32,953 nt of DNA from a virus, in IMG/VR virus record IMGVR_UViG_3300046660_000391, positions 1 to 32,953 of that record; one strand, given 5' to 3'. A program made the position numbers and the translations under genes. Under the pieces are notes generated by a model, which was given only the letters and a program-made list of their open reading frames with translations, had not been told where the DNA came from and searched no databases. This document shows, one piece after another, positions 9,374 through 32,953 of the stretch; within the stretch, counting starts at the first letter, position 1; every line of letters starts with the position of its first letter.

Positions 9374-9463
9374 CCCTACCCCTACCCCCGGCCCTGGTGG
9401 CCGCGCCCGGCAGGCATGGGGCCGCCGGGCGCAACCCCCTCACAATTTCAGGATACCGAGTCG

Positions 9464-11206
9464 ATGAACGCCCTGACTCCGCTTGCACTTCAGAACGTCA
9501 TCGTTCTGCGCACCATCCAAGAATGGTCGGTCGCGCCGTCGACCAAGGCCGCCATGGCCAAGGCCCTCAACCGCGACAAGGGAAATTTCGGCAAGACCCT
9601 GGAGAAGCTGACCGCCGAGGGCCTGGTGGCCTGGCCGTCGCTGACCGAGGCCGGCAAGGCGGTCCTGGCCGAGGTCGAGCGCGCCCCGCACCCGGCCGAA
9701 GCGAACGCCGTTCGCGCGCCCGAGGGGCACGCCTACCTGTTCCACCGTCAAATCCGCATCGGCGGCTTCAACCCGCGCAAGAAGTTCGACAAGGCCGCCC
9801 TGGAAGAGCTGTCGGCTGACATCGCGGAGCGAGGCCTGAAGACCAACCTCGAAGTGCGCGAGCCCGACGCCGAGCCCGACGCCGAGGGGCTGGCCATCCA
9901 CCAGCTGGTGGCCGGCGAACGTCGCTGGCGCGCCATCGGCCTGGCCATCGAGCGCGGCGACCTGGACCGCGACTTCCCCATCCTGGCCAAGGTCGAGGCC
10001 ATCGACGACGCCGCCCACGAAATCGGCGCGCTGCTGGAGAACCTGCAACGCGAGGACCTGACCCCGCTCGAAGAGGCCGAGGCCTTCGAGCGCATCATGC
10101 AGCGCAACGGCTGGAACACCGCCCAGATGGCCGACAAGGCCAAGCGCAAGTCGCGCGAATTCGTCCAGCAGCGCCTGCGCTTGCTCAAGCTGACCGACGC
10201 CGAGAAAAAGCAGATGGAAGGCGGCCAGCTGACCGTGCATGAGGCGCTCAAGCGCATCGCCGCCCGGCCGAAGCCGCTGGAGCTGACCGCCGTCGAGGCG
10301 TTGATGCTGGGCGAGGTCGTCGCCTGGGTCGCGGGCGACCACGCGAGCGGCCTGCCGATCAGCTACTGGCAGTCGCGCGACTGCGGCTCAACAGTCGTCG
10401 ACGACGCCCTGGCCGCCGATCTGATCAAGCGCGGCCTGCTGCACGTCGCCCAGCCCACGGCCTGGGAATTCCACCACCAGGTAAAGTTGGGCTCCCACGA
10501 GGCGCTGGCGCAGCTCACGGCGCTGCTGCCCGACCTCATGAAGCCGGCCACGCACGCCTCGGCGCTGCTAGCCCTGCGGGCCGCCGCTGCCGGCGCGGAC
10601 CTCGCCGAACAGGCCGACACCGAAGGCCGCTACCTCACCCCGTGGCTCAACGGCCCGTTCGAGCTGACCCCCGAGGGCAAGGCCTTCGCCGACGCCAAGG
10701 CGGCCCAGGACGCGGTCGAACAGGCCCAGGCCGACGCCCAGCGCGAGCTGCGCGAGCGCCAGGACGCCGACCGTCGCGCCAAGGCCGAAGAGGCCGCGGC
10801 CAAGGGCCAGGCCTTCCTGGCGGCCGTCCGCAACTTCGAATTCCGCGCCAATGTCGCCCTCGCCGACGGCCTGGCCTTCAACTTCTCCGCCGAGCTGGCG
10901 ACGATCCTGGAGGCCTTCGGTTTCAAGGGGCCGTTCAAGGTCGGCCTCGACGGCGACGCCCTCATCCTCAACGACGCCGAAGGCAAGCTGCTGGCCTGGG
11001 CGCCCGGCCCCGGCTTCGAAGCCCTGCGCCGCGTCCAGGCCCTCGCCCTCAATCACGCCCTCGGCGCGCCGCTGTTCACCGGTCCCGACCTCAAGGCCAT
11101 CAACGACCCGGCCGAAGCGATGCCCGACGACCTGGATGACGGCGAAGGCCTCGAAGACGAGGCCGAAGACGACCCCGAGGCCGACGACGAAGACGACGAG
11201 TCCTGA
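9464..11206 (+). CDS. ParB/Spo0J-family protein with N-terminal winged helix
   Basis: A 580-residue protein. Residues about 10-70 form a MarR-like winged helix (STKAAMAKALNRDKGNFGKTL...). After a linker come the ParB boxes: GFNPRKKFD with EELSADIAERG (101-124), GERRWRA (151-157, the CTP/phosphate-binding motif of ParB CTPases) and ENLQREDLTPLEEAEAF (192-208), followed by the HTH (WNTAQMADKA...). The long C-terminal half contains a coiled coil (about 425-450) and an acidic tail. No ParA partner is in the window. The start at 9464 has CAGGA upstream. It could sit on phage DNA as a clamp for regulation or segregation. The role is inferred, and partition proper would need an ATPase from the host. 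Confidence 0.85.
   Translation: MNALTPLALQNVIVLRTIQEWSVAPSTKAAMAKALNRDKGNFGKTLEKLTAEGLVAWPSLTEAGKAVLAEVERAPHPAEANAVRAPEGHAYLFHRQIRIGGFNPRKKFDKAALEELSADIAERGLKTNLEVREPDAEPDAEGLAIHQLVAGERRWRAIGLAIERGDLDRDFPILAKVEAIDDAAHEIGALLENLQREDLTPLEEAEAFERIMQRNGWNTAQMADKAKRKSREFVQQRLRLLKLTDAEKKQMEGGQLTVHEALKRIAARPKPLELTAVEALMLGEVVAWVAGDHASGLPISYWQSRDCGSTVVDDALAADLIKRGLLHVAQPTAWEFHHQVKLGSHEALAQLTALLPDLMKPATHASALLALRAAAAGADLAEQADTEGRYLTPWLNGPFELTPEGKAFADAKAAQDAVEQAQADAQRELRERQDADRRAKAEEAAAKGQAFLAAVRNFEFRANVALADGLAFNFSAELATILEAFGFKGPFKVGLDGDALILNDAEGKLLAWAPGPGFEALRRVQALALNHALGAPLFTGPDLKAINDPAEAMPDDLDDGEGLEDEAEDDPEADDEDDES
9701..9715. repeat. GCGAACGSCGTTCGC palindrome, copy 4
   Basis: GCGAACGCCGTTCGC inside the parB-like gene, encoding EANAVR exactly in the linker between the winged helix and the ParB domain. 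Confidence 0.75.
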
Positions 11207-13191: not shown

Positions 13192-13611
13192 ATGCCGATT
13201 CGCCCCGAAAACCGCGCCCGCTATCCGGCCGATTGGAAGGCGATCAGCCTTGAGGTGCGCGAGCGCGCCGGCTGGCGCTGCGAGGGCTCGCCCGCCTATC
13301 CGGCCTGCCGCGAGATCAACGGCGAGGAACACACCGACACCGGTTCGAAAGTGGTGCTGACCGTCGCCCACCTCGACCACCAGCCCGAGAACGTCGGCGT
13401 TCCCGGCGACCGGCCCAATCTCAAGGCCTGGTGCCAGCGTTGCCACCTGACCTATGACGCCCCCCACCACGCCCGCACGGCCGCCGAGACGCGCCGCAAG
13501 GCGGCGGCTGGGCCGACGATCGACCTGTTCGAGATCCAGGAAACCGACCCCGTCAAACCGGACTACCGGACGGGCGACGAGGTGGTGCTGTTCGCGGCGG
13601 TCGCGGCATGA
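13192..13611 (+). CDS. HNH endonuclease-like protein
   Basis: A 139-residue HNH-type protein. C30 and C39 form the first half of a zinc site. VVLTVAHLDHQPEN (54-67) holds the H60/H63 pair in the 'AHLDH' pattern, N76 (NLKAW) is the central Asn, and CQRCH (81-85) gives the second CxxC plus the final His. All catalytic positions are present. It is located in the early operon before xis/int, unlike the packaging HNH at 5-463, so it may act as a homing-type or early nuclease. That role is inference. The C-terminus ends in an ATGA overlap with the HTH gene. Confidence 0.75.
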   Translation: MPIRPENRARYPADWKAISLEVRERAGWRCEGSPAYPACREINGEEHTDTGSKVVLTVAHLDHQPENVGVPGDRPNLKAWCQRCHLTYDAPHHARTAAETRRKAAAGPTIDLFEIQETDPVKPDYRTGDEVVLFAAVAA

Positions 13612-14000
13612 CCGACCTTGGCCCCATCACCGAAGCCCGCTTCGCCGAGGTCTTCGCCAAGGGCGCGTTGGCGACAAGTTCGGACGCCGCGTCGCTGCTG
13701 GGACTTGACGTCCGCACCCTTCGGTCTCTCAGTGACGCCCTGATCATCCGGGCGGCCCTGGTGGGCTCGACGCGACGCTATCGCGAGGCCGACCTCCGCC
13801 ACTACCTGACCGAAGGACCCTCGGGCGCATGTCAGTCTACAAGCCCGCGAAAAGCCGTTTCTATGCCTACGACTTCCAGTTCAAAGGTCGTCGCTTTCAC
13901 GGCTCTACCGGGATGGAAACCCTCCGCAAAGCCGAGGCCTTCGAACGCAAGGAGCGCGAGAGGGTCGCGCTCGGGCTCCCCGAAACCCGCGACGGCCTGA
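13608..14000 (+). CDS. Excisionase-like helix-turn-helix protein, overlapping integrase
   Basis: Starts with an ATGA overlap. Residues about 15-68 resemble a MerR/excisionase-type winged HTH (ATSSDAASLLGLDVRTLRSL, then STRRYREADLRHYL). The domain ends near 13827, just before the integrase ATG at 13829. The frame nevertheless stays open to 14000, adding about 57 Ser/Pro/Arg-rich residues read across the integrase gene in another frame. The true protein may simply have this tail, or the region may once have been fused or frameshifted. Position directly before int supports a recombination-directionality factor that would promote excision. Confidence 0.65.
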   Translation: MTDLGPITEARFAEVFAKGALATSSDAASLLGLDVRTLRSLSDALIIRAALVGSTRRYREADLRHYLTEGPSGACQSTSPRKAVSMPTTSSSKVVAFTALPGWKPSAKPRPSNARSARGSRSGSPKPATA

Positions 14001-14995
14001 CGCTCGACGTCGCCGCCGGCCGCTGGTGGACCGAGGTAGGCCAGCACCTGGCCTCGTCGCGCGTCATTTATCACCGCCTCAAGGTCATGGTGCGGCTGCT
14101 CAAGCCCCAGACTCTGCTCACCGACATCACGACCGAGACGATCGCCGCCGCCATCGAACGCCGCCGGGGTGAGACCTATGCGCGCGGCTTTGACGTGCCG
14201 GCCCAGGGCGCCAAGCCCGGCCAGAAGGCCAAGCGCTACACCCTGTCGAATGACACGGTGAACAGCGACATCATCAAACGCATCCGCCCCATTCTGAACC
14301 GTGCCGCCTCGCCGGTCTGGGGCAGCATGAAGGGCCTGCACCAGATCGATTGGAAGGCCCTGGCCCTGCCCGAGGCCGTCACCGATATCCGCCACTTCGC
14401 CGACCCCTACCAACAGGCCTGGGTCGACGCCTGCGGACCCACCGAGGGCTTCGCGCTGGAGCTGCTGCTGGCCTATGGCTGGCGGTTCGGAGAGCTGTTC
14501 TTCCACCCTGGCGCCTATCTGCCAGACACGCCGCTTGGCGCGTCGGTGGCCATCAACAAGCGCAAGGGCGGCAAGCCCATGCTGGTGCCGCTACGCCCGG
14601 TCGACGCGCGGCAGATCGCGGCGCGGGTCGGCATCGCCCAGGCCGCCGGCCTCGACAGCATCTGGATTGAGCGCGATGAAAAGGGCGAGCTAGTCACGGT
14701 CTCTTACGCCGCGATGCAAAGCCGCCTGCGCAAGGCCGCCGAGCGCGCGGGCGCCGATCACAGCCGCCTCATCCACAGCATCCGCCATCACGTCGCCACC
14801 GATTTCCTGCTGGAGACCGGCGACCTGGCCAAGACCAAGGACCTGCTAGGCCACGCCGATATCAAGTCGACGCTGATCTACGCCCACGCCCTGAATTCGG
14901 GCCTGCGCGAAGCCATAAACTCCCGGAATAGTCCCGGAGCCCCGGACCCCGAAGCCGAGTTTTCCCCGCCAAAACAACGCTGTAAGAAGGGCTAA
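13829..14995 (+). CDS. int: Tyrosine-family phage integrase
   Basis: A 388-residue tyrosine recombinase with all catalytic residues visible: Arg219 (GWRFGEL), Lys249 (KGGK), His316 and Arg319 (HSIRHH), His342 (LGHADIKST) and nucleophile Tyr351 (IYAHA). The N-terminal about 50 residues (YKPAKSRFYAYDFQFKGRRF) match the arm-binding type domain, and about 60-160 is the core-binding region. It catalyses integration and, with an excisionase, excision between attP and the host tRNA-Arg(CCG). The stop at 14995 is four bases before the tRNA-like core. The left-arm repeats (14921-14946) lie inside its last codons. Confidence 0.93.
   Translation: MSVYKPAKSRFYAYDFQFKGRRFHGSTGMETLRKAEAFERKERERVALGLPETRDGLTLDVAAGRWWTEVGQHLASSRVIYHRLKVMVRLLKPQTLLTDITTETIAAAIERRRGETYARGFDVPAQGAKPGQKAKRYTLSNDTVNSDIIKRIRPILNRAASPVWGSMKGLHQIDWKALALPEAVTDIRHFADPYQQAWVDACGPTEGFALELLLAYGWRFGELFFHPGAYLPDTPLGASVAINKRKGGKPMLVPLRPVDARQIAARVGIAQAAGLDSIWIERDEKGELVTVSYAAMQSRLRKAAERAGADHSRLIHSIRHHVATDFLLETGDLAKTKDLLGHADIKSTLIYAHALNSGLREAINSRNSPGAPDPEAEFSPPKQRCKKG
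14921..14946. repeat. Integrase arm-type sites, P arm
   Basis: TCCCGGA at 14921-14927 and 14932-14938 (11 bp apart, joined by ATAG), plus a variant CCCCGGA at 14940-14946. The 18-base block TCCCGGAATAGTCCCGGA recurs at 15152-15169 on the other side of the core. This is typical of arm-binding repeats. Confidence 0.65.
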
Positions 14996-14999
14996 CGAC

Positions 15000-15047
15000 G
15001 CCCTCCGAAGGCAAAGGTCACACGTTCGAATCGTGTCGGGTGCGCCA
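15000..15047 (+). other. attP: attP core: 3' half of tRNA-Arg(CCG)
   Basis: Bases 15000-15047 read as the anticodon arm to the end of a tRNA: stem part GCC, loop CTCCGAA (anticodon CCG), GGC, then T-arm ACACG-TTCGAAT-CGTGT, acceptor CGGGTGC, discriminator G and CCA. The sequence before 15000 is the integrase stop, not a D-arm, so no complete tRNA is present. This is the usual form of an attP core for a tRNA-targeting integrase; integration would restore the host gene. Confidence 0.85.
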
Positions 15048-15137
15048 AAATCTCCATAGAAAATCAATCACTTAGGCCGGTTCTGATCGGCCGCGGCCGA
15101 TCCCGAGAATGGGAACGGCGAGCGAACAGAATCATTC

Positions 15138-15169
15138 TCCGGGACTCGAAGTCCCGGAATAGTCCCGGA
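15138..15169. repeat. Integrase arm-type sites, P' arm
   Basis: TCCCGGA at 15152-15158 and 15163-15169 in the same 11-bp-spaced arrangement as the P arm, plus an inverted copy (TCCGGGA) at 15138-15144. The inverted copy and 15152-15158 also form a hairpin (TCCGGGACTCGAAGTCCCGGA with one mismatch-free stem). Confidence 0.65.
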
Positions 15170-15199
15170 TAATGTTCCACCCTTGTTCACGGTAGCGAC

Positions 15200-32921: not shown

Positions 32922-32953
32922 GAAGGTGTCGGGGGGGGGCGGGGGCGCCCCCC
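32922..32953. other. G/C homopolymer end of window
   Basis: After the ATG of the last gene the sequence becomes runs of G and C (nine G, C, five G, then GCGCCCCCC-type ends). No coding signal continues into it. It looks like a contig end with poor base calls, and the major capsid gene expected here is missing. Confidence 0.5.

Follow-up and report, generated by a model that had tools for sequence, protein, structure and literature searches.

The DNA analysed here, hereafter the window, comprises the whole of an IMG/VR record (32,953 bases, classed as linear), and its positions 14921-15188 are very probably the intact attP of a temperate alphaproteobacterial siphovirus, built like the attP of phage lambda and captured in a joined, unintegrated genome. 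Both phage arms stand around one partial tRNA core, whereas relatives have them split with one arm at each end, and phage genes lie on both sides of the core in an order that is circularly permuted relative to the prophage. Within the alphaproteobacteria, the phage belongs probably to the Caulobacterales.

Layout of the two-armed site

The 18-mer TCCCGGAATAGTCCCGGA occurs at 14921-14938 and 15152-15169 in direct orientation, with no third copy on either strand of the window, and the 3' part of a tRNA-Arg(CCG) sits between the two copies. The parts of the site and the two genes beside it are as follows.

13608-14000, plus strand: candidate excisionase/RDF (recombination directionality factor), HTH_17, MerR-like winged helix, overlapping the int start
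13829-14995, plus strand: tyrosine integrase (Pfam PF00589, PHROG integrase) with an N-terminal arm-binding-type domain at residues 1-47
14921-14938, plus strand: P-arm site, two direct half-sites TCCCGGA 11 bp apart, within the int 3' coding end, peptide SRNSPG
15000-15047, plus strand: attP core, tRNA-Arg(CCG) 3' part, anticodon at 15005-15007, crossover probably in the anticodon loop
15062-15074, plus strand: exact match to the IHF consensus WATCAANNNNTTR, between core and P' arm
15111-15116, plus strand: conserved GGGAAC box of the P' arm, a possible RDF or Int site
15138-15146, minus strand: inverted arm half-site TCCGGGACT, reading TCCGGGA at 15138-15144
15152-15169, plus strand: P'-arm site, two direct half-sites TCCCGGA, 146 bp past the anticodon centre
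15174-15188, plus strand: GTTC-N7-GTTC pair, just outside the P' arm

The likeness of the two 18-mer copies extends to 20 of 21 bases, and the window has no other exact direct repeat of 18 bases with its copies within 300 bp of each other; 30 mononucleotide shuffles of the window yielded no more than five 14-mers in all. A chance origin of the pair is ruled out by these shuffles together with the reversed-pattern control described below. The first 47 bases of the core are identical in the intact tRNA genes of three viral contigs (L010, L012 and L016), and ARAGORN detected no complete tRNA in the window, which is what an attP should show. Since int ends at 14995, the left 18-mer falls inside its last codons and is read as SRNSPG. 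The sequence-only reading had described the tRNA-Arg(CCG) 3' half as flanked by the same 18-base block on both sides, plus extra copies; the flanking blocks are borne out, while the extra copies come down to the single inverted half-site at 15138-15144, there being no further full 18-mer.

In the mechanism proposed, the N-terminal domain of Int would dock on the half-sites (A)AGTCCCGGA that stand in tandem on each arm; the P side has two of them, and the P' side has two and a further one in inverted orientation. The catalytic part of Int would exchange strands at the anticodon loop of tRNA-Arg(CCG), the arms and the core being brought together by DNA bending. Integration would then send one arm to each prophage end and rebuild the tRNA, with the int-side arm written within the last int codons.

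The joined form against prophage ends and tandem junctions

The split of the arms is seen most directly in Brevundimonas intermedia, in which contig C9 carries an intact tRNA-Arg(CCG) followed 103 bp on by TCCCGGAATAGTCCCGGC at 141185 (attL), and, 39 kb off at the other prophage end (attR), int, TCCCGGAATAGTCCCGGA at 180113 and a tRNA fragment, so that each end holds a single arm copy. The window proteins are co-linear with this prophage: the tail genes lie in its attL-side half in the same order and on the same strand, and int adjoins attR, which makes the window a circular permutation joined at att. A matching two-armed site is present in the Sphingopyxis phage VSN-002, a plaque-isolated phage with a circular genome (PMC9302152). 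The prophage arm split, the circular permutation and the VSN-002 site together support reading the window as a joined form (free, virion or replicating) with an intact attP. An intact two-armed attP in the middle of the phage had been proposed from the letters of the window and is upheld by these same three lines.

The gene content agrees with the arrangement that the sequence-only reading had expected, with Int to the left and lysis and late genes to the right. Left of the core stand HNH, antiterminator-like, replication, methyltransferase, repressor and ParB-like genes together with int, and right of it, on the minus strand, follow spanin-like, tail fibre, distal tail, tape measure, major tail, head closure and head-tail adaptor genes. 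Genes for terminase, portal and capsid were absent from the window ORFs scanned; these appear to fall between the right and left ends of the record, so that it represents part of a circular map, left open. Positions 1-24000 gave no megablast match to named phages. The ParB-like protein (9416-11206, 596 aa) has no obvious ParA beside it and probably does not belong to a plasmid partition system, and the last bases of the record (32930-32953) are a G-rich run followed by CGCCCCCC, resembling an assembly or low-quality end.

It is improbable, though worth weighing, that two prophages integrated one behind the other at tRNA-Arg(CCG), or else a concatemer, gave rise to the junction, and that the DNA was no free circle. 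A tandem junction would be identical to attP in sequence, and the record is an open fragment in which no end repeats were found; against this, the 33 kb contain no second int, no second core and no host tRNA 5' half, the gene order fits a single circularly permuted phage, and viral contigs often carry joined two-armed sites, with about a dozen met in this analysis, as does a plaque-isolated circular phage. Of the earlier suggestion of a free, excised or episomal phage, the joined form stands, and an episomal state would be one possible case of it; a tandem-prophage or concatemer junction would read alike. The integrated alternative, in which the right flank would be host DNA or an unrelated prophage and the site an attR, takes its cue from the relatives L004, L005 and L006 (integrases 71-80% identical), which share the int-side arm and core, lack the second arm and continue rightward into unrelated sequence; for the window it is ruled out, with hardly any probability left to it, by the second arm and by the spanin-like and tail genes, whose order follows the attL-side half of the prophage in B. 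intermedia. Host or unrelated DNA to the right of 15049 in related genomes had been named as a finding that would speak against an intact attP; the unrelated sequence in L005 and L006 comes without a second arm and is attR-like, and the intact attP is not refuted by it.

Integrase, arm DNA and spacing

The window Int has a recognisable catalytic domain (PF00589, 7e-10), with R219, K246, H316, R319, H342 and Y351 invariant across 26 relatives. Its AlphaFold model (pLDDT 85) has full-length lambda Int (1z1b) as best Foldseek match, and residues 1-47 are predicted to form a beta hairpin and a helix (pLDDT ~90), so modelled as a separate N-terminal arm-binding domain. Among 442 integrase pairs less than 35% identical outside the N-terminus, the first 30 residues have a median identity of 63% against 28% for the rest and are the more alike part in 442 of 442 pairs, the lowest identity of the rest being 21%. 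In a family-wide protein search, an arm lies near 16 of 21 integrases with an SVYKPxKSRFW-type N-terminus and near 0 of 6 with a KRGDxW-type one (hypergeometric p=0.0016 from these counts), and an arm near int was sought without success in the relatives L049, L054, L056 and L065. This co-occurrence with one N-terminal type suggests that the 18-mer is an integrase docking site.

The spacing of the parts, measured to the middle of the anticodon, is close to fixed. The int-side arm begins 84-88 bp off the anticodon in 40 of 42 loci and 107-108 bp off in the remaining two, even though 15 to 29 codons, arm included, are left before the int stop. The P' arm lies at 133-137 bp, mostly with reversed tRNAs, or at 144-148 bp, mostly with forward ones, with single cases at 124, 154-158 and 169; the window has 85 on the int side and 146 on the P' side. 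The P' distances step by ~11 bp, with best periods of 10.5-11.5 (Rayleigh p~1e-6 on 24 non-redundant values, to be taken as indicative because the values are related by descent).

Further conserved elements accompany the P' arm. An IHF-like site with at most one mismatch occurs between core and P' arm in 7 of 24 forward-tRNA loci, against 0.35 in shuffles, and in 0 of 19 reversed-tRNA loci, clear sites being confined to part of the forward-tRNA set; a role of IHF is putative. GGAAC at -55 to -20 accompanies 36 of 43 P' arms (3.3 in shuffles), the inverted half-site 22 of 43 (1.0 in shuffles), and the two members of the GTTC pair are found in 29 and 30 of 43 loci (2.6 and 4.0 in shuffles). At two loci, L145 (G600, 1898-2111) and L146 (G606, 2226-2292), at tRNA-Thr and tRNA-Arg(CCT), the P' arm is accompanied 6-15 bp away by a full inverted 18-mer, and the pair makes a near-perfect dyad.

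There is little likelihood that the 18-mers are bound by an RDF/excisionase or a phage repressor rather than by the Int N-terminal domain, although something must bind the conserved GGGAAC box and GTTC pair around the P' arm, and int has a conserved HTH_17 gene ahead of it. The ORF at 13608-14000 matches Pfam HTH_17 (2.7e-6) and, weakly, the PHROG excisionase profile (0.0016), and a related ORF lies shortly upstream of int in G005 and G552; it is a candidate excisionase. The presence of the 18-mer, however, tracks the N-terminal type of Int, and the spacing between arm and crossover is fixed on both sides and moves in helical steps, as in bridging by Int. Sites for RDFs usually lie on one arm, as those of lambda Xis do, which counts further against such a binder.

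The int coding end shows whether the repeat is kept as DNA or as peptide. In a set restricted to integrases found by protein similarity, 13 of which have SRNSP, its Asn codon is AAT in 13 of 13, against 17% of Asn codons elsewhere in the same genes, and its Ser codon is AGT in 13 of 13, against 1.1% of Ser codons elsewhere. In five phages (L004; L048/L136; L046/L148; L052/L141; L064/L139) int has been parted from the core by inserted sequence, and in each the coding copy has drifted or is absent while an arm with at most one mismatch is kept beside the core. L048 retains the peptide SRNSPG with three silent changes (TCCCGAAATAGTCCTGGT), its exact arm still lying by the core. That the arm DNA is kept only because the C-terminal peptide SRNSPG matters would explain why no integrase with an exact coding int-side arm lacks this peptide, but it is ruled out, with next to no chance of being right, by the non-coding second copy, the frozen synonymous sites and the drift in displaced int; the tail that bears SRNSPG is, moreover, predicted by AlphaFold to be disordered. 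The arrangement at L004, L136, L141, L148 and L139, where an insert lies between int and core and the arm, sometimes with a piece of the int 3' end, stays beside the core, suggests a cargo slot that preserves the arm.

One arm sequence across many targets

In all, ~90 prophage ends or phages have the 18-mer or a near copy flanking their integration cores. Nine tRNA genes are targeted (Arg-CCG, Arg-CCT, Met-CAT, Thr-TGT, Pro-TGG, Pro-GGG, Val-TAC, Leu-TAG and Leu-TAA), with the tRNA in either orientation, and the arm-carrying integrases are as little as 21% identical; on the integrase tree the target tRNA switches at least six times. In an exact scan of IMG/VR the 18-mer was present in 22 stretches and its SRNSPE variant TCCCGGAATAGTCCCGAA in 31. 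As these loci were picked by exact motif, their own motif identity is no evidence, and the argument rests instead on the spacing, the extra boxes and the integrase set found by protein similarity. Among 390 Caulobacteraceae genomes, scanned with the RA-ending motif and one mismatch permitted, 32 genomes contributed 49 arm matches, while the reversed pattern gave 2, and all 11 of 11 same-contig arm pairs 10-53 kb apart were in direct orientation. Among 385 genomes across the class, B. intermedia alone matched the 18-mer with at most one mismatch, so the motif is no general genomic word.

Several neighbours of this set deserve mention. The reversed tRNA is used by integrases at L017, L023, L031, L033, L036, L106-L121 and L159, so that the phage provides the 5' half, and the promoter side, of tRNA-Pro, -Val, -Leu or -Thr. 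In the "Synechococcus" phages Ssp-JY42 and Ssp-JY40 the near copies are separated by 253 and 223 bp; two records with that host label (L175 and L177; PP438432.1 and PP438430.1) hold this attP type with alphaproteobacteria-like tRNA-Arg(CCT) and tRNA-Val cores, and they may in fact have grown on an alphaproteobacterium present in the culture. Another 11-bp motif in tandem, AGGAAGCANATAGGAAGC, lies beside tRNA cores in L180 (8504 and 8748, the copies 244 bp apart), L010 (176, beside tRNA-Arg(CCG)), L016 and L181 (3052), and is apparently another arm-site family at the same tRNA.

Arm-type sites, tRNA cores and crossover near the anticodon are a known principle; lambda and HK022 have a shared arm specificity with different cores, and IntS of ICEMlSym-R7A has a tRNA as its target, a likeness to the window. 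The lambda att site comprises 240 bp with five arm-type sites, IHF and Xis sites and a heterobivalent Int (PMC4880445). The window resembles lambda attP in having the core between arms, a similar size, an IHF-like site between core and P' arm, two plus three half-sites and arm-type repeats, here probably bound by a small Int N-terminal domain; it differs in the arm sequence itself, in a P arm inside the int coding end, in a core formed by a tRNA anticodon loop, and in that its arm sequence is common to integrases for nine tRNA genes. In the portion available of the account of ICEMlSym-R7A from Mesorhizobium, attP measures 283 bp with five arm sites of consensus TGKTGGTATC, and the alphaproteobacterial heterobivalent integrase, five arm sites and winged-helix RDF (a candidate here) are alike, whereas the arm sequence is unrelated and that portion does not describe arm sharing across targets (PMC11963761).

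In cluster K mycobacteriophages, predicted paired 11-bp arm repeats flank the core, likewise read from sequence, and arms were matched with integrase N-termini; there, related integrases share one core with differing arms, while here divergent integrases with different cores share one arm sequence (PMC3203893). VSN-002 (MZ127829.1; PMC9302152) has, like the window, two exact 18-mers around a tRNA core, 222 bp apart, the left one inside int, but its tRNA-Pro is reversed, its att site is undescribed and its integrase (L176, 1501-2619) is annotated "telomere resolvase"; this gene and the small HTH gene before it, annotated "pyocin activator", resemble int and a candidate xis. Crossover near the anticodon is documented in Islander, with 2083 anticodon-centred islands and 159 with a 5' fragment (PMC4383910). 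Among the papers searched, none contained TCCCGGAATAGTCCCG or gave an account of the 18-mer arm motif, and searches on arm sites in alphaproteobacteria returned nothing.

On balance it is rather likely that a broad set of alphaproteobacterial phage integrases has a single arm-site code in common, in spite of divergence in the core target and in most of the protein. In the reading proposed, the code would be locked by its second role within the int coding end and by a helically phased frame. Arm recognition that stays near constant across at least six target changes would be the reverse of the mycobacteriophage pattern; co-resident prophages would share arm specificity, and a change of target would be possible by swapping the core and the catalytic part alone. 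With the 18-mer as a simple query, attL, attR and attP can be placed to the base in many alphaproteobacterial prophages, annotations such as the int named "telomere resolvase" can be corrected, and natural att sites become available for integration vectors to be used in bacteria like Caulobacter and Sphingomonas. Two questions also become testable: how an integrase can switch target with its arms retained, and whether the att sites of one prophage are acted on by another in the same cell.
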